Source: Nitrospiraceae bacterium
GTDB lineage: Bacteria; Nitrospirota; Nitrospiria; Nitrospirales; Nitrospiraceae
Length of the DNA: 64,000 bases
Direction of reading: 5' to 3'
NCBI GenBank assembly: GCA_919902505.1
Contig: CAKKRE010000021.1
Coordinates: 43,674 to 107,673 of the forward strand
A model generated the notes under the pieces. It was given only the letters and a program-made list of their open reading frames with translations, was not told the DNA's origin and did not search any database. Made by a program: the position numbers and the translations under genes. Below, piece after piece: positions 34,478 to 62,837 of this stretch. How positions within the stretch are numbered: the stretch's first letter is position 1; every line of letters begins with the position of its first letter.

Positions 34478-35026
34478 TCACACTTGCAGCATGCGCCGAC
34501 TGATTCGCCGTCGCTGCACGGCGGTCAACCGCATCTCGGCTAAGGCGAACAGCAGCCGCTCCTCACAGGCGATGTGTCCACGATAGCGACGAATCAGCGC
34601 GTGAAGCTCCGCGGTCAGCGCCCGCCATCCGCCGAATGTTTTTGACGCCGCCGCGTTTTGACCGTTGACCCGCTTTCTCGCAAGCTGTCTCATCACCGCT
34701 GTCGCATCGGCTTTCAGCGCCCGGTGTTCGTCCAAGAAGCTCTGGAACTGCTCTTGCCCATCCTGCTTCCGACCGAGGATTCGCAGGAGATCGCCGACCA
34801 GCACCTCTTCCCGTTTGAAATGCACGTCCACGGGGCCGGTAAAGAATTCGAGCAGTTCTCGCAGCGTGTCCCGGTTCGTTCCCTTGACCGTACCGCTCCC
34901 GGATGAGCGAGGACTCATCGCCGTTTCGACCATGGCCAGTCGGTCCAGAATCATTCGGTGCTCCCGTTTGAGCAGGGCCAACGGATCGACGGTGAGACTC
35001 GTTCGCCTGCTACCTTGAGACACCAT
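34478..35026 (-). CDS. Hemerythrin HHE cation-binding domain protein
   Basis: LKREHRMILDRL...VDVHFKREE...FLDEHRALK...YRGHIACEERLLF. Confidence 0.75.
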   Translation of the reverse strand: MVSQGSRRTSLTVDPLALLKREHRMILDRLAMVETAMSPRSSGSGTVKGTNRDTLRELLEFFTGPVDVHFKREEVLVGDLLRILGRKQDGQEQFQSFLDEHRALKADATAVMRQLARKRVNGQNAAASKTFGGWRALTAELHALIRRYRGHIACEERLLFALAEMRLTAVQRRRISRRMLQV

Positions 35027-35284
35027 CGTTCCGGGATCCCATGGACGGAAGCTCCAACATGCGAGCAATGCGACAGCGTCATGCCGTGCGCACTGTACCG
35101 AACAGGTAGGCGGGCACACACTGGCATCGGCCGGTCTGACACATGATTTATCTCAAGGTTTCGGATAGGCCATTGGACCTATGCCTGCGGGGACGAGGCA
35201 AGGGGCGAGATGAACGAACCATACGAGAACGACGAGATGGAGGAGAGCCCGAGGCGTTCGGAATGTCGAACCCGGAACCTTGAA

Positions 35285-35340
35285 CTTCGCGTCGCGCCTG
35301 TCGCGCTTCACGAACGACGCTTCACGAATAACGTCTGACG
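35285..35340. repeat. Short repeat, GTGAAACGT family
   Basis: gtcgcgcttcacgaacgacgcttcacgaataacgtctgacg beside the Crp/Fnr stop. Confidence 0.55.
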
Positions 35341-35347
35341 GGTTCGT

Positions 35348-36058
35348 TCAGCGCTGGGCAATTCTGGAGAGGCGGTCTGGATTCAACAAGGTGATGGTTC
35401 TTCCATCGATGGTGAGGACCCCCTCATCGCGAAAAACACCGAGCAGGCGGATGGCGGTTTCAACCGTGATCCCAGCCATCTCGGCCACTTCTTCCCGTTT
35501 GAGCGTAAGTCCAACCCGGACATGATCGTCATTTTTTTTACCGAATCGATCGCCGAGTTCCAGCAGCAGGCCGGCTAATCGCGCGCGGGCAGTCTTGAAC
35601 GTGAATTGATCGAGATGATCCATATTGACCCCGACTTCATTACTGAGGAGCTGGATCAGCTTGATCGCCAGTTGAGGATTTCTGTGGATGACCGCGAGGT
35701 AGCGTTCCTTGTCGATGACGCAGACTTGAGAGGGTTCCAATGTCTCGCACGTCACTTCATGAAGGGCTCTCTCGCCGAATACGTGCTTCTCGATCAACTC
35801 ACCAGGGCCCAAGATCCGGACGATCTGCCGCCGGCCTCGCGTCGAAGAGCGAGTCAGCTTGACCTTGCCCGAGCATAACAAATAGAGGCCCAAGCACAAA
35901 TGACCTTCGTAGAAGACGGTCTGGTGAGGCGCGTAATCGAGCGTGCGTTTGATTTTCTGAAATTCGGCGAGATCGCTTCCTGCAAGATCGCACAGCACGA
36001 CCTTCGCGCGAAGCCCGCAGGTGTCGCAATTTTCGATGAGGCAGGGCTTCCGTTTCAC
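35348..36058 (-). CDS. Crp/Fnr family transcriptional regulator
   Basis: cNMP-binding fold plus HTH (LKREEVAEMAGITVETAIRLLGVFRDEGVL); Cys-rich N-terminus CLIENCDTCGLRAKVVLC. Confidence 0.85.
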   Translation of the reverse strand: MKRKPCLIENCDTCGLRAKVVLCDLAGSDLAEFQKIKRTLDYAPHQTVFYEGHLCLGLYLLCSGKVKLTRSSTRGRRQIVRILGPGELIEKHVFGERALHEVTCETLEPSQVCVIDKERYLAVIHRNPQLAIKLIQLLSNEVGVNMDHLDQFTFKTARARLAGLLLELGDRFGKKNDDHVRVGLTLKREEVAEMAGITVETAIRLLGVFRDEGVLTIDGRTITLLNPDRLSRIAQR

Positions 36059-36396: not shown

Positions 36397-37359
36397 CTAC
36401 TCCTTCGTCAGTGACACCTTCGCTCCCGCGTCCTCCTGGGCATCCTGCGCGCAACGGAATCCCATCCAATTGATCTTGGTCTTGGGATCGGTGCCGTTCC
36501 GCATTGCCGCCCGCATCGTAGTGGTGCTATCCATCCATCCACCGCCACGGAACGCTTTCTGCGTGCCGGTCTCCGGCCCTTTCGGGTTCCGGCCCGGCGA
36601 CTTCTTGTAATAATCCTGGTCGTACCAATCGGAGACCCACTCGGACACGTTCCCGATGGTTTGATAGAGACCATACGGACTCACGGCATTGTCGTACCTG
36701 TCGACGGAAATGATCGGTGGATAGAGCAACAGCCGCTCCGGACGATCCCGCACGGGACCGGACAATCCGGTTCTGCCGAAATTGGCCCGGGTCGGACCGG
36801 CATATTCACTTCCCCACGGGAATAGTCTGCCATCCACTCCACGCGCGGCCTTCTCCCACTCGGCCTCGGTCGGCAACCGCTTGCCCGCCCATTTGCAGTA
36901 CGCGTCAGCGTCGTACCAGCTGACGTGCATGATCGGATGATGCGCCATCGTATCCTGGAAGTTTCCTCCGTCGTACCGCCAATCCAGCTGCGGCAGACGA
37001 TCCGTAGCCAGGACAAACTTGAGATACTCGAGCGCCGTGACTTCGTACTTGCCGATCATGAACGCGTCCAGATACACCGACCGCTGCGGAATTTCGCTCC
37101 GGTACGCCAACCGATCCGCCTTCTTATCGCTCCCCATGAGGAACTCGCCGGCTGGAATGAGGACCATGTCTTCCTTGGTCTTCCACTTTGCGACCCGCTC
37201 CTGCGCGAGCTTCTTGCCTTCCTCGGTCCACTCGATCACGATGTCCTGTGTATCCAACGCCCGTGCGGCAGGAGCCAGCGCAAACAGCGCGGCTCCGATC
37301 AACAGAGCCTGCCTGGCTAGTTTTCCCCTCCGTGAGACATTCCTTCGTTGTTTGTTCAT
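36397..37359 (-). CDS. SUMF1/formylglycine-generating enzyme-like protein, secreted
   Basis: IPAGEFLMGSDKKAD...RLPTEAEWEKAARGVDGRLFPWG...GNVSEWVSDWYD...RGGGW; signal peptide. Confidence 0.85.
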   Translation of the reverse strand: MNKQRRNVSRRGKLARQALLIGAALFALAPAARALDTQDIVIEWTEEGKKLAQERVAKWKTKEDMVLIPAGEFLMGSDKKADRLAYRSEIPQRSVYLDAFMIGKYEVTALEYLKFVLATDRLPQLDWRYDGGNFQDTMAHHPIMHVSWYDADAYCKWAGKRLPTEAEWEKAARGVDGRLFPWGSEYAGPTRANFGRTGLSGPVRDRPERLLLYPPIISVDRYDNAVSPYGLYQTIGNVSEWVSDWYDQDYYKKSPGRNPKGPETGTQKAFRGGGWMDSTTTMRAAMRNGTDPKTKINWMGFRCAQDAQEDAGAKVSLTKE

Positions 37360-37380
37360 CCTCGGCCTCCTCCTCTCCTA

Positions 37381-37446
37381 GCTATCAGCATTCAGCGATC
37401 AGCTTTCAGCAACAGCTCCTGGCTGACGGCTGATAGCTGACTGCTC
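37381..37446. repeat. GCTGA-family inverted repeat
   Basis: atcagcattcagcgatcagctttcagca ... ctggctgacggctgatagctgactgct; overlaps 3' end of the upstream SUMF1-like CDS. Confidence 0.7.
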
Positions 37447-38315
37447 GCTGTGATTGATGTTGCGCAACGAAACCCTGTCAAATAACTCCAGTGATCCAGC
37501 CCCCCAGCATTACGCCCGGCCGACCGGGCCACCTCGGGATCTTCATTCCATGATCCTCCGCGAAACACTTTGTCCTGCCCGGATTCAGGCCCCTGGGGAT
37601 TGCGATTCCCCTGGCGCCGGTAATACTCCGGATCGAACCAATCAGAGACCCACTCACTCACATTGCCGGCAAGCTGATGCACCCCGTAAGGACTCACGCC
37701 GTTGTCGTAACGATCCACATTCGCGAGCGGCGGATACTTAGCGCCGCGCTTCGAACCGGAATGGGCAATGTTGCTCTTGATCCAGCCGGCCGGCTCATTG
37801 CCCCAGGGAAACATCCGTCCGTCTTCACCACGAGCCGCCTTCTCCCATTCGGCCTCGGTGGGCAAACGAGCCCCCCGCCAGCGGCAATAGGCATCGGCTT
37901 CCCGCCAGGTCACGCCGATCACCGGATGTTTGGCCATCTTCTCCGGGAACGGCTGTGCCCTCCAGTAATGCGGCCAGGCCGCGCCGGTTGCCAACACATA
38001 CCGCAGATAGTTCACGTTGCTGACCTCGTAGCGGTCGATGCTGAACGCATCCACATAGACCTGGTGCTGAGGCAGCTCCTGCGGCCCCGCGGCCCGATCG
38101 AACTTCGGATCGCTACCCATCAGAAACGGGCCGGCCGGCACCGGCACCATCCCGTCCGGCGCCTCGATCAACGCCAGCCGCTCGACATCATCGAGCGGGG
38201 ACCAGAGCGGCGGCGGCTTCGGCAATTCATGGTCGGCATGAACAAGGCCGTGAGGCAGCACGCTCATCAAGAGCACCGCTGCCATCACGATGTTGATGCT
38301 TACTGTTCTGGTCAT
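37392..38315 (-). CDS. SUMF1/formylglycine-generating enzyme-like protein, secreted
   Basis: VPAGPFLMGSDPKFD...RLPTEAEWEKAARGEDGRMFPWGNE...GNVSEWVSDWFD; C-terminus SSQLSAVSQELLLKADR is repeat-encoded. Confidence 0.85.
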   Translation of the reverse strand: MTRTVSINIVMAAVLLMSVLPHGLVHADHELPKPPPLWSPLDDVERLALIEAPDGMVPVPAGPFLMGSDPKFDRAAGPQELPQHQVYVDAFSIDRYEVSNVNYLRYVLATGAAWPHYWRAQPFPEKMAKHPVIGVTWREADAYCRWRGARLPTEAEWEKAARGEDGRMFPWGNEPAGWIKSNIAHSGSKRGAKYPPLANVDRYDNGVSPYGVHQLAGNVSEWVSDWFDPEYYRRQGNRNPQGPESGQDKVFRGGSWNEDPEVARSAGRNAGGLDHWSYLTGFRCATSITASSQLSAVSQELLLKADR

Positions 38316-38396: not shown

Positions 38397-39347
38397 TCAA
38401 TGACCCTGCTTTTTGACCAGCGGATCGATTTCCTTCTTCGCTTCCTCGGTCACGTTATAGCGGGCATACGCATGGTCCAGGACCTCATTGGCATAGAGCC
38501 GCCCGGTCGGCGCCGGGACCCCGATCATGGCCTCAACGGTGCCCTTCGGACCGATGGTGACGGTTTGTTCCGTCGCCGTCCTGATATAGGGATGCCAGAC
38601 GACCAACTTATAGGTGCCCGGCGGCACATCGGTCATGGTGAACCGGCCCTGTTCGTCCGTCTTGGCAAAGTAGGGATTCATGATAGCCACGCCCCAGCTC
38701 TCCATGTAGGCATGGAAACCGCACTGCATGACAAAGATCCGGCGGTTTTTGCTGAGTTTCACCAACTCTTTCATCGGCGGACCGGCCATGTGTTTGTGAT
38801 ACATCCCAGCCTCGGTACGGTCCTTGAAATTGCGCGGATGCTGCGGATTCATCGGCAGCGGCACGTTGAACAGAACACGCGCGCCCAAATTCGACGTTTC
38901 ATAGGCCTGAATGTCGTGCATCACCGGATCCATGTTGACGACCGTGACCGACTGATCGTCCCGCACGACGGTCGTAAACGGCAGGAACAGGCAATCCTTC
39001 GCCTCTATTTGCGGCACTTCTTTCTCAGCGAACGGTTTTCCCTTCTCAATCCCCTCCAGATACACGACGACTTCACGAAACTCGCCTCTCGGTCCGACGT
39101 TGAACGGTTGCAGAATGCGCCAGCCTTCCCCGTCGGAAATGCGCCCGCAATAGAACGGGTCCGGCAGTGTGGTGAGGTTGTACCCTTTCGGTTTCGGGAC
39201 TGTCCCCTCCAACTTCACGATCCCCGTCAGTGTCCCGCCATCCGATACAGTAACTTCTTCATAGGCTGACACAGGACTGCTCGCGAGAGACGATGCGAGA
39301 GCAACCGTAGCCAACCCCAAGACCCACCCGAAACAACTCTTCTTCAT
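38397..39347 (-). CDS. Secreted carboxypeptidase-regulatory/cupredoxin-like (plastocyanin-like) protein
   Basis: Signal peptide MKKSCFGWVLGLATVALA; VTVVNMDPVMHDIQAYE, FVMQCGFHAYMESW, DEQGRFTMTDVPPGTYKLVVWHP. Confidence 0.7.
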   Translation of the reverse strand: MKKSCFGWVLGLATVALASSLASSPVSAYEEVTVSDGGTLTGIVKLEGTVPKPKGYNLTTLPDPFYCGRISDGEGWRILQPFNVGPRGEFREVVVYLEGIEKGKPFAEKEVPQIEAKDCLFLPFTTVVRDDQSVTVVNMDPVMHDIQAYETSNLGARVLFNVPLPMNPQHPRNFKDRTEAGMYHKHMAGPPMKELVKLSKNRRIFVMQCGFHAYMESWGVAIMNPYFAKTDEQGRFTMTDVPPGTYKLVVWHPYIRTATEQTVTIGPKGTVEAMIGVPAPTGRLYANEVLDHAYARYNVTEEAKKEIDPLVKKQGH

Positions 39348-39488
39348 CGCCTGCTGCTGACGCTTCGTTGTAGTACCCAGTGTCACGTCCGGCCTCCTCT
39401 GTGATTGGTCCATGGTGCGATCGACTGATACCATCGATCATACAGGGAAGCCATCACGTTTTTCTTCCCCCGAGACTTAAAATACAGA

Positions 39489-39548: not shown

Positions 39549-42500
39549 TTACTTCATGGCAGTCGGAATCGCCTGCGGCTCGGGCAGCACTTCGGCTTGA
39601 CGTGCACCCGCTCCACTTGCGCTGAGAGGCTGAATCCGCGCATCGCCGGTCGGCAACACACGCAGATAGCCCCACTGTCCGGACTGCGTGTAGGGCAGCC
39701 GTGCATTCGACCACACGAAGTCGCCCACCTGACGATACGGTCCGCCCGCACCGCCACGGATGAAGACATCGAGGGTCTCAGACCCGGCGTATTCCACCAC
39801 GCTGATCATGTCGGCACCCGCCATGTACGGCTCGATCGGCCACTCGTGGCCCTCGACGCTGAACATGCCGTTCTGCTCGCTGTTCGCCCCGATCACATGG
39901 ATACGGAGCGCATCACCCGCGTGCGCCTCGATCAGAGGCGTGACGGGATCTTCGGGCTTATCCACCGCGCAAGGCTGGAAGATCTTGCCCAACGAGCACC
40001 CTTGTTCCTCGCGGAACTTGTACGGTTCAGCGCGGTAGTTCACCGACGTCAAACCGGCCACGTTCTGCACATAGGGCATGAACGCGGTTCCGATGATGTT
40101 GTCCTCGTCTTGGAAGAAGAGGGCCACGTCACGGTAGTTCCGCTTGCCGGCGTTTTCAGAAAGGGTGGTGTCGACGATGACGTCGGCCCGCCACACGTTC
40201 TTCTGTGACACATCGGCACCGGTGACGGGATCACGATACTGCGATCCCTTCGGACCGATGACGATCGCGCCGTACAATCCGTTACGCGGATTGACGACGA
40301 TGTTGCCACCGTCCCACACCAACGACGTCGTTTCCTTGTTGGAAGGATGCGCGTAATAGGTGTAGGTGCGGCTCTCGCCCGGAGCCACGGTCTGATCGCC
40401 GGCATTGTTGCCGACATTCAAGCCCTGGCTGTCTTTCGGATCGAAGGCCAGACCCGGCGCAAAGAACGACGCCCGGCTCGCCTTCATCTTGTTCTTCAGA
40501 TTCACCTTGAGGCAATCGCCCAGATTGGCGCGCAGCGTGAGCGGATTCGGCATCACGTTGCCCGCGACGGTCGCGGCTTCTTCCTCCAGCGCGAAGATCT
40601 TGCCTTCCGGCATGGTCATTTCGATCTTCCGCTCGAAATCCACCTCGATCGCATCCGGGGCCTTCGGATTGAGCTTCATCGGGCGATCCAACGCCACGAC
40701 GTTGAAGCTCTTCACCGGAGCATCCGACGGACACACGGAATTGGGAGTCGCCGGGATCCCGAGAGGATTGGTCCCCCTGGGCAGCGGCTTCAAGTCCGCC
40801 ACTTCCTTATCGAGCACGCGGATGATGCCCCATCCACCTTCGGCGAAGTGCGACGTTCTGCCGTTGAAGTGGATGTAGTCACCCGGCATACCCTGGAATC
40901 CACCCGCCTTGGTGACGAGGTCGTACCGCTCGGCGATCCCGACGTGAATCGAGTTCTTCCGGTTGGCCTCCGGGGCATACCGCTCCGTGAGGAAGGTATG
41001 TCCGGCGATCGTCCAGACGTGGGATTCGTTCATCAGCTGATGCAACAGGCGGAACACCATGGTGTCGCCCGTGTACGCCCGCAAGAGCGGCGTGCCCGGA
41101 TCACCGTGGATCGCGCTGCTGAACAGCTTCGAGGTGTCCGGATTGTTGGACAGGCGTTGTGCAAACGGAGCCGCGCGGAAGTTGAAACCGCTACCGGTCG
41201 TGTGCGTCCCGCCGTTGATGTACTTGTTCGGCGCATTCAGGATCTTGTCCGGCATCTGGAAGGACACCGTCTTTCCTGCTTCCAACGCCACTTCGATCGG
41301 CTGTCCGGGAGGATTGCCGGCTTCGATGACGTTGACCGTGTGCGGCACCGTGTCGTGGATGGAGACCATCAACTCACGGAAGCTGCCGCTGACACCGGCA
41401 CCGATCGGCTCGTTGCTGTGAATGTCCGCGATCGGACCGCTATACACCAACTTGCCGTTCTTCGGATCATGATAGGTGGACCCGAACGGCTCCACGATCG
41501 TCACGCCGAACCCGCCATGGGGCCAGGTCGTCGCGCCGAACGCGTGGTCATGCCAGAACACGGTTCCCATATCCACGTCCACCCACCACCGGTACCGCAC
41601 GAACTCCGGCGACACAAGATCGCCCGCCGGGTGGTTGTGCTTCAGTGGCTTGAAGAACGTGATTTGATCGCCCTTGATTTCCTTGATACGAACGACTTCC
41701 TGACAGCTCTTATCCCGCGGCAGTGACGCCGCTGGATCGTTGCCCTTCTCCAAGCAATCCATCCCCACCATCAGTTCCGTGTTGGGATGGAACAATGCCG
41801 CGCCAGGTGCCATCTGGATCTTCATAGCGGTGGCGCCGGCTTTCGCCTCGCCCGTGAGCTTCGCAACCATCGGAGCCGGCAATCCATGCTTGGTCTTCTT
41901 CCCCCACATGGTGAACGGCCGGACCGACATTTCATACTCCATCCCGGAGATCACACCGTCTGAGTTCCCGGTGTCGAACTGGAAGAAGTGGGGATGGATG
42001 TTGATCTTGGACGACTGGAAGTTCGTGTAATCGTCGTCGTCCCATTCGCTGGTCAACAACAAGTCCACGCAGTCATACACGTTGGCGCGGATGACGGCGG
42101 GCAGTTTCAGATCGTCATTGGCTCTGGTCAAACGCTCTTCTTCGTGAAGGACGTAGATCAGACCGTCCTTGTCCACCATGGCCGGCTCTTTCCCCTGCTT
42201 CTTGGCCAAGGTGATCGGCATGCGGACAAAGTGGATGTTGTAATGCTTCCGATTGGCGTTGTCAGGGCACAGGCTCCAACGGCCCTGTTCGCCCGGCATC
42301 GCCGGCTCGGAGGTCCGCTCACCGTTGGCATCCTGGTGAATCGGCTCCAACCATGGCGCACCGCTGTGGTTCGCCGAGAACGGCACGCGCTTGCCGAAGT
42401 GCGGCTTGAACAACGGCCAGGCCATTTTCCCTGTCGTCGGATCGAACAGGATCGCCGGTCTGGTGCTGTCATCCCACTTCGCGGCCCACGTATACTTCGG

Positions 42501-44489
42501 ATTCGGAGCGGTGCTTTCCCGCTCACCGCGAGCGATGTTGCCGTCCCACTTCCAGTCCCACACCGTCGAATCGTAGGCCATGATCTGGCCCTTTTCATCA
42601 TTGGTGTGGCCCGGCTGACCCTGGGCCGGAACAAACATCTCGACCCAATCCTTGATGTTCACGATCACAGGATCGGACTTCCAGTTCGTCTTCTGGCTCT
42701 TGTCGACGATCTTGAAGGTCTTGCCGAACCAGTCGACCGTGCTGCCGATCAACTTATCCGACGAAACACCCTGCTTCATACGGCCCAGACGATCCGGCAA
42801 CTCACGCATATCCGGCATCGTGTCGGTATGCGCTGCACCGACCTGCAACGTATTGTAGAACCGGCCGTACCCCCACATGCCCGCCACATAGTGGTGCGCG
42901 ACGTGGCAGTGATAGAGGAACTCGCCGGCCAGGTGCTGACAGCCACCGCCGCCGCATTCCGGTTCCAGGTCGAGCGCTTCGGACGGACCAACCACTTCCA
43001 CGTCCACCCGATCGGACTTCGTCCGGACCACCGGATACTTCACCGGACCGTCCTGTCCCTTAAACCAATGCTCTTCCTGATCGGCACGCGGGCTGCGCTG
43101 CCAACGGATGGTGCCGCTGTGCGGATGGTGGGAGTGGAACACTTCCGATCCACCATGCACCAAACGCCACTTGACCGGATCACCGAGGTAGCCACGGGCC
43201 ACCGTGGTGGGCGGGTCACCGAAGGTGTAGGCGCTGTAGGCCAGCGACTCATCTTCGAAGCCGAAATATTCATGCTGCAAGTGCATCTGATCGATGCCGA
43301 ACGGCTCGCTGCGATAGTTGATCGCGCGGCCACCCGGACGATAGGCATCGGTCAACGGATCGCGCTGCGGCAAGAAGTCACCCTTCTTGTTCAGCGGACG
43401 GAACGCTTCGTCGCCGATCTCGTGATAGAAGAGCACGAATTCGCGGAAGTCCGGTCCGGATCCGTTGTCGATCATGACCTCCCATCCACCGTCGATCTCG
43501 GGCGCGGCGCCCGTTCCGAGCGGATCGAGGTACTTGGAGCCCTTCGGTTCGACGATGAAGGCACCGAAGAGGCCCAACACCGTCAACTCGCGATCATGAC
43601 TCCATGAGTGGAACTGCCGCACACCTTCCTGCATCTGCGGATGGATGTACCATTCGAACTCCTGCGCCTTGCCCGGCGAGACTACCGTGTCCGGGTTCGT
43701 CGTCGTCGCAGGCTTCCCGGTGGCGCTTACGATCATGCTGGAAGCTGCGATGACCAAGCTACCGTCCTCACCCTCCATCTGATTGCGCAGCGTCATCTTG
43801 ACGCAATCGCCCTGGTTGGCACGAAGCACCAGCGGCTGAATCGCATCGCCCTGGTTGCCGGTCGTCACCGCGCCAGGATCGAATCCGTCCTTTTCGCGCG
43901 CTTCCTTGTTCTTGGTTTCCTCAGCGCGAACCTTGTCGATTTCCCCGGTGTGGACGTACATATAGCCGGGATAGAAGTCGAGCCAGCGGTTCAAGCTGAT
44001 TTCGATGTTGATCATCGACACGTCGTACTTCTTCACCGGCGCATTGGCGGGACATTTCCCCCCTGACGTCATCACCGGTTCGCCCTTCGACGAATCGGAC
44101 GCCAGCAGGAAGCTGCTCCCGTCCTGTCCCATATACTGGTGCATCATCGACATTTCGTTGAATGCACCGGAAGTCTGCTGCGCCTTCGCGTCCGTCTGCG
44201 CCTGTTGTTCCAACTTCTCCATCAGGCGGTGGTGCTGCATCTCCATCTTTTCTGCATTCCCGGCACGACCCTCCATGGCGTTTTCCACCACGGTCTGACC
44301 CTTCAGGGTCTGGGTCCAGCCCGGCATGGCGACAGGCGTCGCATGTCCATCATGCGACTGATCGCCCGGCCCGGCCGCAAATACCCACGGCGCCGCGAGC
44401 AAACTGCCCGATAGCAGCGCCGCCTGCAGGCTCAGCATCGCCTTGCGACTGATGCGCCTGCGCTTTGACACATGCACTGAAGACCTCAT
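39549..44489 (-). CDS. Giant secreted multicopper oxidase (1646 aa, multiple cupredoxin modules)
   Basis: YHCHVAHHYVAGMWGYGR type-1/type-3 motif, HSHHPHSG, INIHPHFFQF, VFWHDHAFG; repeated LRANxGDCVKxxLxNxM modules; N-terminal signal. Confidence 0.9.
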   Translation of the reverse strand: MRSSVHVSKRRRISRKAMLSLQAALLSGSLLAAPWVFAAGPGDQSHDGHATPVAMPGWTQTLKGQTVVENAMEGRAGNAEKMEMQHHRLMEKLEQQAQTDAKAQQTSGAFNEMSMMHQYMGQDGSSFLLASDSSKGEPVMTSGGKCPANAPVKKYDVSMINIEISLNRWLDFYPGYMYVHTGEIDKVRAEETKNKEAREKDGFDPGAVTTGNQGDAIQPLVLRANQGDCVKMTLRNQMEGEDGSLVIAASSMIVSATGKPATTTNPDTVVSPGKAQEFEWYIHPQMQEGVRQFHSWSHDRELTVLGLFGAFIVEPKGSKYLDPLGTGAAPEIDGGWEVMIDNGSGPDFREFVLFYHEIGDEAFRPLNKKGDFLPQRDPLTDAYRPGGRAINYRSEPFGIDQMHLQHEYFGFEDESLAYSAYTFGDPPTTVARGYLGDPVKWRLVHGGSEVFHSHHPHSGTIRWQRSPRADQEEHWFKGQDGPVKYPVVRTKSDRVDVEVVGPSEALDLEPECGGGGCQHLAGEFLYHCHVAHHYVAGMWGYGRFYNTLQVGAAHTDTMPDMRELPDRLGRMKQGVSSDKLIGSTVDWFGKTFKIVDKSQKTNWKSDPVIVNIKDWVEMFVPAQGQPGHTNDEKGQIMAYDSTVWDWKWDGNIARGERESTAPNPKYTWAAKWDDSTRPAILFDPTTGKMAWPLFKPHFGKRVPFSANHSGAPWLEPIHQDANGERTSEPAMPGEQGRWSLCPDNANRKHYNIHFVRMPITLAKKQGKEPAMVDKDGLIYVLHEEERLTRANDDLKLPAVIRANVYDCVDLLLTSEWDDDDYTNFQSSKINIHPHFFQFDTGNSDGVISGMEYEMSVRPFTMWGKKTKHGLPAPMVAKLTGEAKAGATAMKIQMAPGAALFHPNTELMVGMDCLEKGNDPAASLPRDKSCQEVVRIKEIKGDQITFFKPLKHNHPAGDLVSPEFVRYRWWVDVDMGTVFWHDHAFGATTWPHGGFGVTIVEPFGSTYHDPKNGKLVYSGPIADIHSNEPIGAGVSGSFRELMVSIHDTVPHTVNVIEAGNPPGQPIEVALEAGKTVSFQMPDKILNAPNKYINGGTHTTGSGFNFRAAPFAQRLSNNPDTSKLFSSAIHGDPGTPLLRAYTGDTMVFRLLHQLMNESHVWTIAGHTFLTERYAPEANRKNSIHVGIAERYDLVTKAGGFQGMPGDYIHFNGRTSHFAEGGWGIIRVLDKEVADLKPLPRGTNPLGIPATPNSVCPSDAPVKSFNVVALDRPMKLNPKAPDAIEVDFERKIEMTMPEGKIFALEEEAATVAGNVMPNPLTLRANLGDCLKVNLKNKMKASRASFFAPGLAFDPKDSQGLNVGNNAGDQTVAPGESRTYTYYAHPSNKETTSLVWDGGNIVVNPRNGLYGAIVIGPKGSQYRDPVTGADVSQKNVWRADVIVDTTLSENAGKRNYRDVALFFQDEDNIIGTAFMPYVQNVAGLTSVNYRAEPYKFREEQGCSLGKIFQPCAVDKPEDPVTPLIEAHAGDALRIHVIGANSEQNGMFSVEGHEWPIEPYMAGADMISVVEYAGSETLDVFIRGGAGGPYRQVGDFVWSNARLPYTQSGQWGYLRVLPTGDARIQPLSASGAGARQAEVLPEPQAIPTAMK

Positions 44490-44728: not shown

Positions 44729-44743
44729 GCAATTGATGTGCCC
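44729..44743 (-). promoter_or_regulatory. Candidate sigma54 -24/-12 promoter upstream of multicopper oxidase
   Basis: Minus strand GGGCAC-ATCAA-TTGC versus consensus TGGCAC-N5-TTGC (one mismatch, invariant GG/GC kept). Confidence 0.45.
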
Positions 44744-45065: not shown

Positions 45066-46499
45066 CTACTGAATGCCGAGCTCGTGCAGCTTGTTGTAGA
45101 GACTGGCCCGACTGATTTTGAGCACACGGGCCGCTTGCACTCGATTCCCGGAGGTCTGCTGCAATGCCTGCAGGATACGAGCCCGCTCGGCCTGTCGCGC
45201 CGCGCCCCGGCCGACCGTCCTGAGGTCGGTATCCTGAGGGTGACTCCCCAGTTCGACCAGATCCGCACAGGTCAGCTCCGTATGGGTCGTGGTCACCACG
45301 GCTCGCTCGATATAATGCTGCAGCTCACGAACATTCCCGGGCCAGGGCGCAGCGGTCAAGGCACGCATGGCCTCTTCGCTCACCTGACGCAGGTCCTGCC
45401 GATGCCGCTGGCAGGAGTCGGCAATAAATTTTTCGACCAAGAGGGGAATGTCCACCCTTCGGTCACGGAGCGGAGGCAAATGAACAGGCAACACGGCCAG
45501 CCGATAGTAGAGGTCCTGACGAAACGCCTTCGCCTTGACCAAATCGGTCAGATCCTTGTTGGTGGCAGAAATGACACGGACATCGATCTTGACCGGCTGC
45601 GTCCCGCCGACTCGCTTAATCTCGCCTTCTTGCAAGACGCGAAGAAGTTTAGCCTGGAAGGTCGGAGAGGTATCGGCAATCTCATCCAGAAAGATCGTGC
45701 CACCGTCGGCCTCTTCGAACAGACCGGGCTTGGCCCCGGCCGCTCCGGTAAAGGCGCCTTTGACATGGCCGAACAGCTCACTCTCCAGCAACGTTTCCGG
45801 GAGCGCCCCGCAATCGACCACCACAAACGGCTTGTCGCGACGGTAGCTCGTCTGGTGAATAGTCCGGGCCACGAGTTCCTTTCCCGTGCCGCTTTCACCC
45901 TGGATCAACACCGTGGCCGAACTGTCGGCCACCAACCGGATCATTTCAAACAGCTGATTCATGGCCGGACTCGCACCGACCAGATCGCCCAATCTCGATT
46001 CGGTCCGTTCCGGACGCGATCGGCCAGGCCTTTGCTGCGACAGCGCCGCTGGAATACTGAGCGGCTCCGACCGCTTGTGAAACAGCACGAGGACCGAGGC
46101 CACTTCTCCTGTCGAGGAGACGAGCGGAAACGCCTGGTGCATGCCGCAGGCAGTCCCATCGCCCGACGTGTTGCAGGAGACCGTGAGTACTTCCCCCGTC
46201 TTAAAAACCGACTCAGCCGGACAGGTCCCGCAGGGGTCTGTCATTTGAACGAAGGACTGAAAACACTTGGCCGGCTTGGCGACCGCAGACGGCTCGCCGG
46301 AGTGCGCCCACGCGGCGTCATTGGCATAGACCACGTTGAGTTCTCGATCTATCACGGCGACGCGGTCCGTCAGCCCGTCAGCCAATTGCTTCAACGCTTC
46401 CAAACGAGCGGCCAAAATCGGATCGGCGAAGGGGGAAAGGGGCGTTACCTGTGAGTGAGATCCGGCCATCTCATCACTCCTCATTTCTATGGGAACCAC
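45066..46499 (-). CDS. Sigma54-dependent transcriptional activator with N-terminal PAS domain
   Basis: AAA+ motifs [25 protein letters not shown]-terminal Fis HTH ([23 protein letters not shown]). Confidence 0.9.
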
Positions 46500-46610: not shown

Positions 46611-47042
46611 TCAGTGCAGCAGTCCATCCTCTGGCCGGCCTCCGGGATGTTGCAGGAGTTGCTTGACCGTCGCTTTGAGCTCCGATAGCCTGACCGGCTT
46701 GTCGAAGTAGGCCGTCGCGCCGTTCTTTATCGCCTCGTCCTTGGTCTGGGCATCACCAAAGGCGGTCATGACGATAATCGGACAACCGGGCACACAGCTT
46801 CTCAATCGATGGACATAGTCGAAACCGCCGGCCGGCATTTTCAAGTCGGTCACGATCAGATCGGGAGCCGCTCGTATGACCGCAGCCAGCCCCTCTTCCC
46901 CGTTGCTGGCCTCGCGCAATTGGTATCCCTCTCCCCACAGCTCATCGCAGAGCAAGCTCCGCATATCCTTATCGTCTTCCACCACCAGTAATACGGCTGG
47001 TGTTCGACTGTCCACGTTCGAACCCTCGGAATAGGTCACCAT
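46611..47042 (-). CDS. Stand-alone response regulator receiver protein
   Basis: VLLVVEDDKDMRSLLCDEL...LIVTDLKMPAGGFD...GATAYFDKPV; no output domain. Confidence 0.85.
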   Translation of the reverse strand: MVTYSEGSNVDSRTPAVLLVVEDDKDMRSLLCDELWGEGYQLREASNGEEGLAAVIRAAPDLIVTDLKMPAGGFDYVHRLRSCVPGCPIIVMTAFGDAQTKDEAIKNGATAYFDKPVRLSELKATVKQLLQHPGGRPEDGLLH

Positions 47043-47225
47043 GGGGACAACACAACGCAAACCATGTGCCACTCGCGCCGGCGCGTGAAAGCGAGCAACT
47101 CCTTGTATTCACTGGACAACTGGACGCGAAGGTTTTTCCAACCAGTAGGTGCATGAACCGGCCTCTGGCGAGAAAGACCCCACCCTCTGAAAAAGCCCTG
47201 TCCCGAAGCGCCACAACGGGACGAG

Positions 47226-47340
47226 CAGAGCGTATGGCGAATAGCCGATGGCGTATGGCACGAGCGAAGAAAAGAGTCCAACCATTCCCAAGGGCTGTTC
47301 AATCCCAGCCATAAGCTAGATGCCATACGCTATCAGCTCT
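47226..47340. repeat. TATGGC-family inverted repeat, copy 2
   Basis: gcgtatggcgaatagccgatggcgtatggcacgagcgaaga ... gccatacgctatcagctc. Confidence 0.7.
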
Positions 47341-50023
47341 TGTCTATCGGTAGGCAAACGGTGAAGGTCGTCCCCCGCTCAGGTTCACTCTCCACCTCGA
47401 TCGTTCCGCTGTGTTCCTCAATGATGCCCTTCACCACCGTCAGACCTAACCCGGTTCCCTTCCCGAACTCCTTGGTGGTGAAAAACGGGTCGAACACCTT
47501 GGCGATCACGTCCCGGGGCATCCCGTGACCGGTATCCGCCACCGACAACCGGACCATGTCTCGGTCCGGCGCCAGTGCCAGCTTCAAGACCCCTCCCCCG
47601 GGCATCGCATGGATCGCATTCATCACCAGGTTGATCAGGACCTGACTCATCTGATCGGCATCGGCATGCACCAACGGGCAGGCGTCGGCGAACGAGGTTT
47701 CCACGCGGATGTTGCTGTGAGACAGGCGTTCCTGGAAAATTTCCAGGTTGTCCTCGATGGTCTGGCGCAAGTCCAAGGCGCGGTGCTCGACCGGACGTCG
47801 CCGGGCAAACGCCAGCAACTGATTCATCACCCGCGTAATTCGCTCGACCTGACTGACGATAGTTTGAAGCCCCTTCCTGACCGGCTCCTCCTTCGTTCGC
47901 TCCATCAGATATTCGGCCCGGCCCAAAATGACGTTCATGGGTGTGCCGATCTCATGCGCCATGCCGGATGCCACGGTTCCCAGTTCGGCCACGCGCTCCG
48001 TCCGACGGAGTTGCGCCTGCAGGCGCTTCCGCTCCGTGATGTCGCTGGCGATGCCGTCGATCCGCAACGGACGGCCTTCGGCATCCTTGATGACCCGCCC
48101 GCGGTCATGCAGCCAACGCAGGTCGCCGTCGAGCCTGACGATGCGATACTCCACATCGAACTCCCCCATGGTCAAGAGGGCCTGTCTCGCCTGTTCCGCA
48201 ATCACGCGATCGTCGGGATGAACGACCTCCAGCCATAACGAGGGCCGGGCCAAAAACGCGTCGGTCGGGCGTCCATAGATCTCCAGCACAGACGGACTGA
48301 CATAAAACAGCGTGGACAGATCCAGCGACGACGACCAGATCACGTCCTCCATCGCCCCCAATAAACTTTGAAGCCGCTCTTCACTCTCCCGCAACTTCTG
48401 CTCGGCCGCTTTGCGCATCGAAATATCCCGCAAGACGACCAGTATGCCGAACCCCTCTTCATCCTGGAACCGGGCGGCCCTGACAGCCACATCCACGCTC
48501 ACCCCGTCCAACCGCACGATCTTTTCCTCGACCTCAGGCACCGTGTTACCGGGCTCCAGGAGATGCCGGATCCGTTCACCGATCAACTCGTGGTAGTCGG
48601 GATGCGCCAGGTCGTACAGCGACTTGCCGAGAATCTCCTCTCCCGACCGGGCCCCGAACAACCGAAGGCCCTGTTCGTTGGTAAAGATGATCCGGTTCTC
48701 CCGGTTAACCAGGATGGCATCCGGCAAGACCGCCAACAGCCGGCGATACCGGTCTTCGCTTTGGCGCAGCAACGCCTCGGCCTTTTTCCACTCGGTCACA
48801 TCGCGCGTCACACCCAAAACCGCCGTAATGGTGCCATCGGCTGATCGCAGAGGCACCACATGCATATCCAGCCACCGGTGAGTCCCCAGAAGACCGACCA
48901 TCTGAAACTCCAATCGCCCCGCTTCCCCTCGCCCTGCCTTACGGACCAGCTCACGGTAGATCGTTCGAAACTCGGCGGTGACCAGATGGCACACATCCCG
49001 TCCGATGATGTCGGCACTGCTCATCACCTCGATCATGGCAAGGCCTGCGGCGTTGATGGTCCGGACGGTTCCATCCAGGTTGAGCAGTTTCACACATTCG
49101 GGCTCGGTCTCAATAATCGCCCGTAACAGGGCCTCGCGTTCCGCCAGCTCCTGTTCGAGCCGTTTGCGTTCGGTAATATCGCGGAGGATGACGGTGTAAT
49201 ACCGCGTCCCTTCCACCGCGATCTGCGAGATCGCGGCTTCGATCGGAAATTCCTCTCCGTCGGCCCGGACCCCCATCACCATGCCCAGCGCGCCCATTTG
49301 GCGCGTCGTGATACCGGAACGGCCGAACGCCCGGATATGCTCATCATGGGCGCTGCGGAAACGCTCGGGAAGCAGTCGATCCAGCGGCCGTCCCAACACT
49401 TCCTCGGCGCTCCACTGAAACATCTTTGCAGCCGCCTGATTGAACAGCACGATCTTGTGCCCTTCGTCGATGGTGATAATGGCATCCATGGCCGAGCGAA
49501 TGATGCCTTCAAAGCGCAGTTTCTCCCCCTGCATTTCTGCTTCAGCACGACGTTGTCCCGCCTCGGCACCCACCACCGCCGCTTCAGCCCGGATACGCGC
49601 TTCCGCCGCTAGAGCCTCTGCGGCCTCAGTTTGATGTGGCTCAGCCCGCGCGGTCGTGAGTGCCTGAGACATCCGGCCGGGACCCACGTCCGGCCTATCC
49701 GGACTAAGCGGGCGACCGGTCACCAATGCAGCCACGGCCCCCATGATCCCGATGCCCAGCAGACGATTGAGCCATGAGGAAAGCGGCAGAGAGCCGGCGG
49801 AGGACGCAAGAGGGCCGATCAGCGCCAGCAACGCCACCAGCCCCATAAAATAGCGGGAAACCTGCCCGAGTGAGGAAGCCGCGATCAGAATGAACGGAAT
49901 CGCATAGAGCAGCCACAGGTCGATCCCGGCGGGCGCCGACAGATCCAGGACGAAGATCCCGACCGTCAGCAGCAATGGAACGCCGTATTCAAACCGCGGA
50001 GATTTCTGATGAAGGGGCTGCAC
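47333..50023 (-). CDS. Multi-PAS membrane sensor histidine kinase
   Basis: Several PAS domains, HisKA GMAHEIGTPMNVILG, HATPase DTGHGMPRDVIAKVFDPFFTTKEFGKGTGLGLTVV. Confidence 0.9.
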   Translation of the reverse strand: MQPLHQKSPRFEYGVPLLLTVGIFVLDLSAPAGIDLWLLYAIPFILIAASSLGQVSRYFMGLVALLALIGPLASSAGSLPLSSWLNRLLGIGIMGAVAALVTGRPLSPDRPDVGPGRMSQALTTARAEPHQTEAAEALAAEARIRAEAAVVGAEAGQRRAEAEMQGEKLRFEGIIRSAMDAIITIDEGHKIVLFNQAAAKMFQWSAEEVLGRPLDRLLPERFRSAHDEHIRAFGRSGITTRQMGALGMVMGVRADGEEFPIEAAISQIAVEGTRYYTVILRDITERKRLEQELAEREALLRAIIETEPECVKLLNLDGTVRTINAAGLAMIEVMSSADIIGRDVCHLVTAEFRTIYRELVRKAGRGEAGRLEFQMVGLLGTHRWLDMHVVPLRSADGTITAVLGVTRDVTEWKKAEALLRQSEDRYRRLLAVLPDAILVNRENRIIFTNEQGLRLFGARSGEEILGKSLYDLAHPDYHELIGERIRHLLEPGNTVPEVEEKIVRLDGVSVDVAVRAARFQDEEGFGILVVLRDISMRKAAEQKLRESEERLQSLLGAMEDVIWSSSLDLSTLFYVSPSVLEIYGRPTDAFLARPSLWLEVVHPDDRVIAEQARQALLTMGEFDVEYRIVRLDGDLRWLHDRGRVIKDAEGRPLRIDGIASDITERKRLQAQLRRTERVAELGTVASGMAHEIGTPMNVILGRAEYLMERTKEEPVRKGLQTIVSQVERITRVMNQLLAFARRRPVEHRALDLRQTIEDNLEIFQERLSHSNIRVETSFADACPLVHADADQMSQVLINLVMNAIHAMPGGGVLKLALAPDRDMVRLSVADTGHGMPRDVIAKVFDPFFTTKEFGKGTGLGLTVVKGIIEEHSGTIEVESEPERGTTFTVCLPIDKS

Positions 50024-50059: not shown

Positions 50060-51439
50060 CTACGCGTCTGAGTGTGGTTTGCCTTCGATTTCAGCGAGTT
50101 TCCGGTACAGAGTCTTCCGGTCGATACCCAGGACATGCGCGGCCTGATACTTGTTGCCGCCCGTCTTTTCCAAAATTTTCACGATGTACTCTTTTTCCAC
50201 TTCGTGCAACGGCAGGGTGCGTTCCGCGGCTTCATCGAGAATCCGGCGATCGCCTCGGGAGCCTTGCACCTGCACCGGCAAGTCGTCCGCGCCGATCATG
50301 TCCCCATGGCTCAGCGTGACGGCCCGCTCAATGACGTTCTCCAACTCCCGCACATTCCCCGGCCAGGCGTAGTCGGCCAGCATGGCGAGAGCCGATTCGC
50401 TGATCCCCTTGACCTGTTTGCCTCTGCTGCCGGCGCACTTCTTCAAGAACGCATCCACGAGAATCGGAATATCCTCCCGACGTTCGCGCAGCGGGGGGAG
50501 CCGCAACTCGATCACATTGAGGCGATAGTAGAAATCTTCGCGGAATCGCTTATTCTTCACTTCTTCGGCAAGGTTCAAGTTCGTGGCGGCGATAATACGC
50601 ACGTCCACGGGAATAGACTTGGTCGCCCCCACGCGACGGATTTCCCGTTCCTGAATGGCGCGCAGGAGTTTTGCCTGGAGCATGAGCGGAAGTTCGCTGA
50701 TTTCATCCAGAAACAACGTGCCCTTTTGTGCCTCTTCAAAGAGCCCGCGCTTGTCCATTTTGGCATCTGTAAACGAGCCGCGCATGTGCCCGAAGAGTTC
50801 ACTTTCCAGCAATTGTTCAGGGATCGCGGCGCAGTTCACCGGGACAAACGGCGCATCCCGCCGGTCGCTGTTGTAATGAATGGCCTTGGCGACCAGTTCT
50901 TTCCCCGTCCCGCTCTCTCCCGTGATCAACACGTTGGTCGGACTGTCGGCCACGCGTCGAATCAGATCGAAGACCGCCTGCATCGGCTTGCTCTTACCGA
51001 GAATCTGATGAAAGCTGTACTCCTTATGCACCTCTTTCCGCAGCCGGCTGACTTCGCGCCGGAGCGCCGCTTCCCGAATCGCGCGCTCGACCACCCGCAC
51101 CAGTTCCTCGGTTTTCACCGGTTTGGTCAGATAGTCGCTGGCGCCATGCCGGATTGCCTCGACCGCCGTCTCCACAGATCCGAAGGCCGTCATCAGGATC
51201 ACGCCGATATCGGGATAGCGGTGCTTCACCTCCGCCAACAACTCGGTACCTAACATACCTTTCATGCGGAGGTCGGTCAGGACCACGGCATAGTCTTCCT
51301 CGCTCAGCCGCTGAAGCGCGTCGGCACCGCTGCCGACGCCCGTGCATTGATGCCCGCGGCCCTGCAAGACATCGCACAGCAGGCTGCGCATGTCGGCATC
51401 ATCGTCGACCACCAAGACCGCGCCCCATTCCTCAGTCAT
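50060..51439 (-). CDS. NtrC-family sigma54-dependent response regulator
   Basis: REC (VLVVDDDADMRSLL), AAA+ ([24 protein letters not shown]), Fis HTH (YQAAHVLGIDRKTLYRKL). Confidence 0.92.
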   Translation of the reverse strand: MTEEWGAVLVVDDDADMRSLLCDVLQGRGHQCTGVGSGADALQRLSEEDYAVVLTDLRMKGMLGTELLAEVKHRYPDIGVILMTAFGSVETAVEAIRHGASDYLTKPVKTEELVRVVERAIREAALRREVSRLRKEVHKEYSFHQILGKSKPMQAVFDLIRRVADSPTNVLITGESGTGKELVAKAIHYNSDRRDAPFVPVNCAAIPEQLLESELFGHMRGSFTDAKMDKRGLFEEAQKGTLFLDEISELPLMLQAKLLRAIQEREIRRVGATKSIPVDVRIIAATNLNLAEEVKNKRFREDFYYRLNVIELRLPPLRERREDIPILVDAFLKKCAGSRGKQVKGISESALAMLADYAWPGNVRELENVIERAVTLSHGDMIGADDLPVQVQGSRGDRRILDEAAERTLPLHEVEKEYIVKILEKTGGNKYQAAHVLGIDRKTLYRKLAEIEGKPHSDA

Positions 51440-60411: not shown

Positions 60412-61878
60412 TTAGTTCTCCGCATGCTGGAGGGCCTCGAATGCCGTGGCGACTCTCAGCTGATCCTCCCGTGAGAGTTGATCCAGATCAACCTTCTTGC
60501 CATGTTTGGTCACCAATGAAGTGGAAGAAGTTTCGCCAAGTCCCACTGCCATCATGACGTGGTCCACTTCTTCTCCGTCAATGAGGGGGAACAAACGGGC
60601 AATGGTCGGAGGGATGTTGAAATTGGCATACACAATCAAAACCGAGACTTGGCTGGGAGTGAGCGTCACATTCGCGGTCGCAGTGGAAGAGGCAAAACTC
60701 CCACTTGAGGCGCCGCTCGTGACCGTCACCATGGGGCTGGAGGTTGTTGGTAAATGAACCTGCACTGTGAACAGTGTCGGCACTGGGATATTGCTGGCGG
60801 TCAGGACGACCGGGACCAAACTGCCAGTTCCGACCGGGAGTGTCACATCCGGTGTTGTGGCGGCCCCGATCGGAACCGGCGGCATAGCCACGCCGGCGAT
60901 CGAGGCAATCCGCAAGCTCGGCGCGCTGATCAGCGGGGGCACACTGGCCGCTGTCACCCCGGTCGGGGCGCCAGGCGAGAGACCGGGCGTACTCGTTCCG
61001 GTGAAAGACAATGTGTTGGCCTCGACCCGGATACGGCCACTGTTCGACAAATTGTAAAAACACGACGGCTGGATGCCAGGAGTGGCCTGCAGGGCCCCCG
61101 CACCGAGAATCTGTGGCGCGACCAGGCGAATCGCGCCGCCGCTCCCACTTCCGGCAACCGTATTAAAAGAGCAATTAGCACCGAGCATTCCTCCTTTGCC
61201 GCCGTTTGCCGTCACCGCTCCGTTGATGGTGATTTGGGTTGACGACGCAATCACAATCGCGCCGCCCCCGCCGCCACCGGACCCACCGGCTATCGTCTGT
61301 CCCGACGTAGAATTTGCACGAGTTCCTCCTCCTCCGGACCCGCCGAAGAGTGGGACGAGCGACACAAAGGACAGATCGGCGCCATAGGTGCCATGTCCCT
61401 GTGGAGCATTGTTGCACGTGCTGGACGCACATCCCGGCCCCCCGCCTGGCCCTTGCCCAGTCGTTCCCGAGTCATTGGTCCCTCGCTGCCCTCCATTGCC
61501 CCCTGAAAATCCGCCAGGGCCACCGAGGGCCCCGACGTTCAATGTGGGACCAGTGCTCGACTGAGGCACCCCATCGAACCCATTCACACTCACGGTTCCG
61601 GCAATCGTGACATCGCCTGAGGCCAACAGGGCCGCCGACGTGTTGCTCACATTCGGGGTAAAGGTGAGGGTGACACCGGCGGGAATGTTCACGGTCGTGT
61701 AATTCAAGACCCCGTCCGGCGGCAGGGCGATGGCCGTATTGGAGGTCGGGTTCAGAGCGCCCAACACTCCCGTACTGCCGCTGTTGAACGGCACTTGTGC
61801 CAGGGCCGATGGACTTCCGACCAATCCCCAGACAAGGCAAGATAGAGCAAGGATGATACCGCGTAGATAGCCAGTCAT
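60412..61878 (-). CDS. Secreted Gly-rich hypothetical protein
   Basis: RBS AAGGAGTTGATT before MTGYLRGIILALSCLVW signal peptide; GGSGGGGTRANS / GGSGGGGGGAIVIAS glycine-rich core. Confidence 0.7.
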   Translation of the reverse strand: MTGYLRGIILALSCLVWGLVGSPSALAQVPFNSGSTGVLGALNPTSNTAIALPPDGVLNYTTVNIPAGVTLTFTPNVSNTSAALLASGDVTIAGTVSVNGFDGVPQSSTGPTLNVGALGGPGGFSGGNGGQRGTNDSGTTGQGPGGGPGCASSTCNNAPQGHGTYGADLSFVSLVPLFGGSGGGGTRANSTSGQTIAGGSGGGGGGAIVIASSTQITINGAVTANGGKGGMLGANCSFNTVAGSGSGGAIRLVAPQILGAGALQATPGIQPSCFYNLSNSGRIRVEANTLSFTGTSTPGLSPGAPTGVTAASVPPLISAPSLRIASIAGVAMPPVPIGAATTPDVTLPVGTGSLVPVVLTASNIPVPTLFTVQVHLPTTSSPMVTVTSGASSGSFASSTATANVTLTPSQVSVLIVYANFNIPPTIARLFPLIDGEEVDHVMMAVGLGETSSTSLVTKHGKKVDLDQLSREDQLRVATAFEALQHAEN

Positions 61879-61937
61879 AATCAACTCCTTGTGGCCAGTC
61901 ATCTCAACGCATGCCCAACAACCCTGACGGGCTTCTC

Positions 61938-62837
61938 TCATGGCAACAGCACGCTACCCTTCGCCACACCGAATGACGGACCGGTATGGGGCCCGTCGAG
62001 GAGGACGCTCCCCATGGTCACGCTCGATGACGAACCGGTTGACGGCCCATGGCGAAACACGCTGCCTTTCGCAACCGCCGACGAGGACTGCGCAGGTGTC
62101 ACAGTCACTGTTACGGGTCCACTGGTCGCCGTGCCGCCGAGCGTGTCAATTGAGAAGGTATAGGCTTGCAGTGGCGCAGAAGCCGGGACCGTCACCGTCA
62201 TCGTGATCTCCTGCGGATTATTCCCCTGCACCACCGTGGCCGTGAGATTGGACGGAGCAAACGTGATGGCAGGGGTATTCCCCAAATTAAATCCCCCGAC
62301 CACGAGCTGAACGGTACTCCCTTGCGGGACCCTATTGGGCGTGACGCTCGCAATGACGGGTGGAATCAGCACGGTGAACGCCAGGGAACTGGTGGCGGTC
62401 CCATTCGTATTGGTCACCGTGACAGGACCCGTAGATGCGCCAACCGGCACGTTCACGACCAGACTCGTCCCCGTTGCCGAAAGGACGGTGCCTGCGACAC
62501 CGTTGAACGACACCTGATTGCTCGAAGGCGGAGCAGTAAAGCCGAAGCCTTGAATGGTCACAGCTATGTTCACACGTGCGCTGCCGGGTGCGACGGCAAA
62601 CATCCCCACTCCGCCGCCGCTCGTCGTGAATCGTTGAATGCCGAGGAGGTTGCCGACCTCATCGTAGGTGTAGACTGCAACCTGTCCTTGTCCATCGATC
62701 ACTCCTGCCAGCCGACCCAGCTCATCGTAGAAATATTGGGCGGTGTCGGCAGGTAAAGCCGTCGGCATCAAAAGACTCGCGCAGAGCAGAGTCATCAGGC
62801 CAAATCTCGCTACACTATATGAAGGGAACCTGTTCAT
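61938..62837 (-). CDS. YD-repeat and IPT/TIG-domain secreted protein with C-terminal tandem repeats
   Basis: AQYFYDELGRLAGVIDGQGQVAVYTYDEVGNLLGI; IPT-like PPVIASVTPNRVPQGSTVQLVVGGFNLG. Confidence 0.75.
   Translation of the reverse strand: MNRFPSYSVARFGLMTLLCASLLMPTALPADTAQYFYDELGRLAGVIDGQGQVAVYTYDEVGNLLGIQRFTTSGGGVGMFAVAPGSARVNIAVTIQGFGFTAPPSSNQVSFNGVAGTVLSATGTSLVVNVPVGASTGPVTVTNTNGTATSSLAFTVLIPPVIASVTPNRVPQGSTVQLVVGGFNLGNTPAITFAPSNLTATVVQGNNPQEITMTVTVPASAPLQAYTFSIDTLGGTATSGPVTVTVTPAQSSSAVAKGSVFRHGPSTGSSSSVTMGSVLLDGPHTGPSFGVAKGSVLLP

Follow-up and report, generated by a model that had tools for sequence, protein, structure and literature searches.

In the window (the whole stretch of DNA analysed, 64,000 nucleotides, whose closest public genome is that of Candidatus Nitrospira defluvii at 98% protein identity), a long reverse-strand open reading frame encodes a predicted multicopper oxidase, MCO-A, with a gene for a companion protein carrying a cupredoxin domain directly downstream, two FGE (sulfatase-modifying-factor)-like genes beyond that, and a set of regulatory genes upstream (Table 1). 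Further downstream lie genes for an Fnr/Crp-type regulator and a hemerythrin-domain protein (34478-36058), whose synteny is kept mainly in close relatives. Elsewhere in the window, two adjacent exported ORFs occupy 60412-62837, one with YD-like (RHS-type) repeats recognised by eye.

Table 1. Coordinates of MCO-A, its sequence features and its neighbours in the window.
Feature	Position	Strand	Basis
MCO-A, six-domain MnxG-like multicopper oxidase, 1646 aa (predicted)	39549..44489	-	ORF with ATG start; 9bxa MnxG E=2.8e-83; 80 aligned sequences
Putative N-terminal export signal, about aa 1-39, RRRISRKAMLSLQAALLSGSLLAAPWVFAA	44373..44489	-	Read from sequence
HSHHPHSG, aa 452-459, domain 2: type-1 ligand H452, trinuclear H455 and H457	43113..43136	-	Align with MnxG H281, H284, H286
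YHCHVAHHYVAGM, aa 526-538, domain 2: trinuclear H527 and H529; type-1 C528, H533 and M538	42876..42914	-	Align with MnxG H334, C335, H336, A340, M345
INIHPHFFQF, aa 829-838, domain 3: trinuclear H832 and H834	41976..42005	-	Align with MnxG HIH 529-531
VFWHDHAFG, aa 977-985, domain 3: trinuclear H980 and H982	41535..41561	-	Align with MnxG HDH 574-576
Domains 5-6 without copper ligands, aa ~1240-1646	39552..40772	-	Pfam Cu-oxidase_3 match at aa 1305-1414; HCH absent from sequence
Companion, exported, 345 aa: cupredoxin domain (H173, C238, H241, M244) and CarboxypepD_reg domain	38397..39434	-	Pfam
Exported FGE/sulfatase-modifying-factor-like protein 1	37392..38315	-	PF03781 E=2.2e-54
Exported FGE/sulfatase-modifying-factor-like protein 2	36397..37359	-	PF03781 E=1.1e-58; syntenic
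Putative sigma54 -24/-12-type promoter GGCACATCAATTGC, about 250 bp upstream of MCO-A start	44729..44742	-	Pattern GGCAY-N5-TTGC
Sigma54 activator (AAA+, Fis-type HTH, weak PAS match)	45066..46499	-	PF00158 E=2.3e-72
Single-domain response regulator	46611..47072	-	PF00072; syntenic in MCO-A loci
PAS-domain sensor histidine kinase	47333..50023	-	Pfam
NtrC-family response regulator	50060..51439	-	NCBIfam; syntenic

Inspection of the copper motifs revealed that the HxxHxH/HCH pair of MCO-A (aa 452-457 and 527-538) lies ahead of its two HxH motifs (aa 832-834 and 980-982). The preliminary description of this DNA had likewise placed a C-terminal-type pair before an N-terminal-type pair, with motif coordinates that are correct to within about 0.1 kb. 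It had named an ordinary cupredoxin order and a gap in the trinuclear ligand set as the observations that would speak against it; we find that the ligand set is complete and that the order is not laccase-like. The 12 predicted ligands are invariant in all 80 aligned sequences, and they are kept in the 26/26 class-level homologues that cover these positions, in a paralog (MCO-B, see below) and in a Streptomyces homologue, which argues that the motif set is not due to chance. The third module recognised earlier (aa ~1240-1646), which does lack an HCH motif, corresponds to domains 5 and 6; its cysteines are C1253, C1326, C1498 and C1507.

The best PDB relative by far was the MnxG of Bacillus sp. 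PL-12 (9bxa, 1227 aa), which matched in several stretches along the chain, and with profiles of MCO-A domains 2 and 3 MnxG was the sole PDB match at their cut-offs. By alignment, MnxG has the same order, H281/H284/H286 followed by H334-C335-H336 with M345, then HIH 529-531 and HDH 574-576 (residue numbers counted from the printed alignments). The likeness to MnxG suggested in the preliminary description is borne out by sequence, down to the identical motif order. One position differs: chain A of 9bxa has Ala340 where MCO-A has the predicted type-1 ligand H533, presumably an H340A mutation in 9bxa. Since the published mnxG primers encode HCHLYPH/Q, that is, His or Gln at the position of residue 340 (PMC3039467), Ala340 is probably an engineered type-1 change.

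The order of the motifs had also been regarded as anomalous, and this part of the preliminary description does not hold. A canonical three-domain laccase or CotA-type enzyme, in which HxH is expected before HxxHxH/HCH, was considered and rejected, the order in MCO-A being the reverse. In a survey of six-domain multicopper proteins, every bacterial six-domain multicopper oxidase (MCO) analysed had its mononuclear site in domain 2 and its trinuclear site in domains 2 and 3 (PMC3600357), and in the mnxG primer study region D is likewise ahead of regions A and B (PMC3039467). As judged by alignment, the motif order of MCO-A is real, yet it is the known layout of its enzyme family, which explains the apparent permutation.

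By the same alignments, the modules of MCO-A are better described as six cupredoxin domains, with the predicted copper set on domains 2 and 3 and not on domains 1, 4, 5 or 6; as in the six-domain MnxG-type enzymes, domain 2 has the sole type-1 site and shares the trinuclear ligands with domain 3. The profile of domain 2 also matches MnxG domains 4 and 6, that of domain 3 also matches domains 1 and 5, and in the alignment a CP...RANxGDC-type cysteine pair recurs at the starts of the odd domains (C146/C229, C741/C807 and C1253/C1326); these cross-matches and the recurring pair indicate that MCO-A is built from three odd/even cupredoxin pairs. In a six-cupredoxin ring the trinuclear centre may occupy different interfaces, that of domains 1 and 6 in ceruloplasmin; in MCO-A it is predicted to lie at the interface of domains 2 and 3. 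An AlphaFold model of aa 140-1245 was unusable (pLDDT 38.7) and was discarded, and the three-dimensional geometry of the copper site is predicted by homology only.

A second copy, MCO-B, is 68% identical to MCO-A and lies on another contig (G000:C16:321693-326510; loci L002, L096). At a threshold of E<=1e-50, and with class membership assigned by counting rows by kinship, an MCO gene was present in 163 of 396 Nitrospirota genomes: 163 of the 165 from the window's class, Nitrospiria, and none of the 231 others. Most MCO-positive Nitrospiria genomes gave two matches each. We searched the same 396 genomes for the nitrite oxidoreductase alpha subunit, NxrA, which is present in most genus-, family- and order-level relatives. 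Among the 21 genomes related to that of the window at class level only, NOB-type NxrA was found in 0/21 and the MCO in 21/21, while 16 Nitrospirota outside the class (e.g. G062, G176, G328) encode NxrA-like proteins (E<1e-200) and lack the MCO. The MCO thus tracks the class and not nitrite oxidation, and an exclusive role in nitrite oxidation is rejected by this comparison.

In a tree built by a quick method, whose root we do not rely on because it depends on a single, very long Streptomyces branch, A copies are set apart from B copies within the order, and class-level copies form other groups. In some Nitrospira the two copies are close together in tandem (L018, L019, L037, L056; G373:C15:692898-706667), an arrangement compatible with a local duplication that was later split. 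In one MAG the MCO frame is disrupted (L034, about 12.2-12.6 kb), with a 791-aa open part and six in-frame TGA codons in the shifted stretch; recoding was rejected there, as the disruption is local, confined to one MAG, and resembles frame errors.

The companion cupredoxin accompanies both copies: it occurs within 2.7 kb downstream in 32/39 MCO-A loci and 27/29 MCO-B loci, and likewise in most class-level MCO loci. Its four candidate ligands are 97-99% conserved in 97 sequences, and its model (pLDDT 88) resembles small cupredoxins, among them 5fc9, 4hcf and amicyanin, whole-chain TM-scores being low because only one domain matches. An FGE-like gene lies within 4.5 kb in 29/32 MCO-A loci. Exported FGE-like pairs accompany both MCO copies (36397-38315 in the window; L096:1020-2899), and each copy in the window has two cysteines only, far apart. 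The MCO-B cluster contains three companion-type genes, a HEAT-repeat protein, a DUF420 protein, a cytochrome bd-like oxidase and two FGE-like genes, and MCO-B lies about 70 kb from nxrA on a shared contig.

The upstream region distinguishes the two copies. The GGCAY-N5-TTGC pattern was found upstream of 43/47 MCO-A genes, as against 1/34 MCO-B genes and 3% of random 700-bp segments; in the window, the strict pattern TGGC-N7-TTGC gave matches at chance level only. Genes for the sigma54 activator and the sensor histidine kinase were upstream in 18/29 and 17/27 MCO-A loci, respectively, and in 0/19 MCO-B loci in each case; the response regulator and the NtrC-type regulator are likewise kept upstream in many MCO-A loci and missing from MCO-B loci. 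A further sigma54-type match, GGCACATGGTTTGC, lies at the start of the response-regulator gene (47057-47070). A two-component system acting through sigma54 therefore probably activates MCO-A, and MCO-B lacks a promoter of this type. In Pseudomonas putida, the mnxG and mcoA promoters have predicted sigma54 sites, and control by the two-component system MnxS/MnxR has been proposed (PMC11930936); the parallel with MCO-A is suggestive, not proof.

Taken together, these results indicate that MCO-A is almost certainly (probability about 0.95) a secreted, six-cupredoxin-domain multicopper oxidase of the MnxG type, probably periplasmic. For a metal-oxidase role we estimate a probability of about 0.5. 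Metal oxidation by MCO-A is plausible, and the natural substrate would most likely be Mn(II), though a different metal ion, for instance Cu(I) or Fe(II), is also possible. We hypothesize that the type-1 copper in domain 2 (H452, C528, H533, M538) would accept single electrons from the reducing substrate and pass them along the His-Cys-His link (H527, C528, H529) towards a single trinuclear centre (H455, H457, H527, H529, H832, H834, H980, H982) at the domain 2/3 interface, where O2 would be reduced to water; the adjacent cupredoxin may serve as an electron or copper partner. The electron path follows established multicopper oxidase chemistry, and the ligand set and architecture are taken from sequence homology.

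The enzyme is nearly universal in Nitrospiria, a wider occurrence than that of known Mn oxidation, and we count this against the Mn-oxidase reading. Its presence throughout the class, whether or not NXR is encoded, would fit a general aerobic role, such as a periplasmic defence that protects an aerobic chemolithotroph by oxidising Cu(I) or by making Mn(III) to scavenge superoxide. A Mn(III)-based ROS defence was proposed by Lucker et al. in 2013, who noted that N. defluvii has neither superoxide dismutase nor catalase (PMC3578206). The predicted copper-binding site of the companion and the CopC-type gene adjoining the Streptomyces homologue are consistent with a role in copper defence, but a Pfam scan of the adjacent window ORFs found no CopA-, CopB- or CopC-type copper-resistance gene. 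CueO/PcoA-type Cu(I) oxidases, moreover, are three-domain enzymes of ordinary motif order and differ in this from MCO-A, and a ROS defence would still need Mn(II) oxidation, which makes it a physiological variant of the metal-oxidase reading. We regard a defensive role as possible but doubtful.

The cupredoxin gene directly downstream in most MCO loci could instead encode a physiological donor, the MCO being coupled to nitrite respiration as a redox valve or an auxiliary O2 reductase; the cytochrome bd-like oxidase, DUF420 and three companion-type genes of the MCO-B cluster and the position of nxrA on its contig fit such a link. It is unlikely, however, given that the MCO is kept in the 21 class-level genomes without NOB-type NxrA and is absent from the 16 Nitrospirota with NxrA-like proteins. 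It is more improbable still that the MCO and the neighbouring cupredoxin form a class-wide electron-input module of Nitrospiria, in which electrons taken by the MCO from Mn(II) or another metal would pass via the cupredoxin to respiration and not to O2 only. Such a module, if it existed, would provide energy from metals for nitrite oxidisers and their relatives, possibly including the Mn-oxidising Manganitrophaceae (PMC9040806). Finally, copper ligands are missing from four of the six domains, as is the case in all bacterial relatives (PMC3600357), and this would suit a degenerate, structural or inactive MCO relative; but the type-1 and trinuclear ligand set is complete and invariant, and we give this explanation hardly any weight.

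Less expected than the motif order is that an MnxG-like oxidase belongs to the core of Nitrospiria, as a rule in two copies and usually beside a blue-copper gene. Nitrospiria are major nitrifiers and include cultivated species; the distribution makes a testable point and raises the question of whether common nitrifiers oxidise manganese. With its putative sigma54 promoter, MCO-A is a candidate for regulated metal oxidation. An MnxG-like enzyme in N. defluvii was already reported in 2013 (PMC3578206); the conserved partner and the regulation of MCO-A make its function testable.

Compared with known systems, MCO-A shares most with MnxG of PL-12: both have six cupredoxin domains, a type-1 site that belongs to domain 2, trinuclear ligands divided between domains 2 and 3, and the order HxxHxH, HCH, HxH, HxH. 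MCO-A differs in being 419 aa longer, with long inserts and a putative export signal, and in its recognised neighbour, a cupredoxin where MnxG has MnxE/MnxF. Mnx activity in Bacillus depends on MnxE and MnxF (PMC5622069); no small gene of MnxE/F size was recognised beside MCO-A, where the neighbours are the cupredoxin, FGE-like and regulator genes. MnxG/McoA of P. putida GB-1 (NF041487) gave significant partial matches to MCO-A (1.9e-31) and shares the predicted sigma54 promoter and two-component control (PMC11930936), but its operon differs, and MCO-A scores 108 bits against the 3100-bit cut-off of the NCBIfam MnxG equivalog, so that an Mn function is not transferable to MCO-A by orthology. 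MofA of Leptothrix and OmpB of Geobacter, compared here by description, are large bacterial MCOs of about 1600 aa linked to Mn or Fe and similar in size to MCO-A (PMC3600357); neither a mofB (isomerase) nor a mofC (cytochrome c) gene was recognised by Pfam scan of the adjacent window ORFs. Ceruloplasmin is also a six-domain oxidase with one trinuclear centre, but this lies between domains 1 and 6, and there are three type-1 sites (PMC3600357), as opposed to the predicted domain 2/3 centre and single type-1 site of MCO-A.

Each of the Manganitrophaceae has two novel MCOs with no role assigned, and the authors point out that lithotrophy by way of these enzymes would require a periplasmic carrier to take up the electrons (PMC9040806); the companion cupredoxin is a candidate for such a carrier. 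Lucker et al. described a multicopper oxidase of Nitrospina gracilis, highly conserved in N. defluvii, that resembles the Mn oxidase of Bacillus SG-1 (PMC3578206). Like MCO-A, this putative enzyme is MnxG-like, belongs to nitrite oxidisers and is clustered with cupredoxin-like proteins, and there also with a bd-like oxidase (PMC3578206). The MCO-B cluster resembles the one drawn there for nitrite oxidisers and, judged by the bd-like-oxidase neighbours, the copy they described looks like MCO-B rather than the gene in the window.
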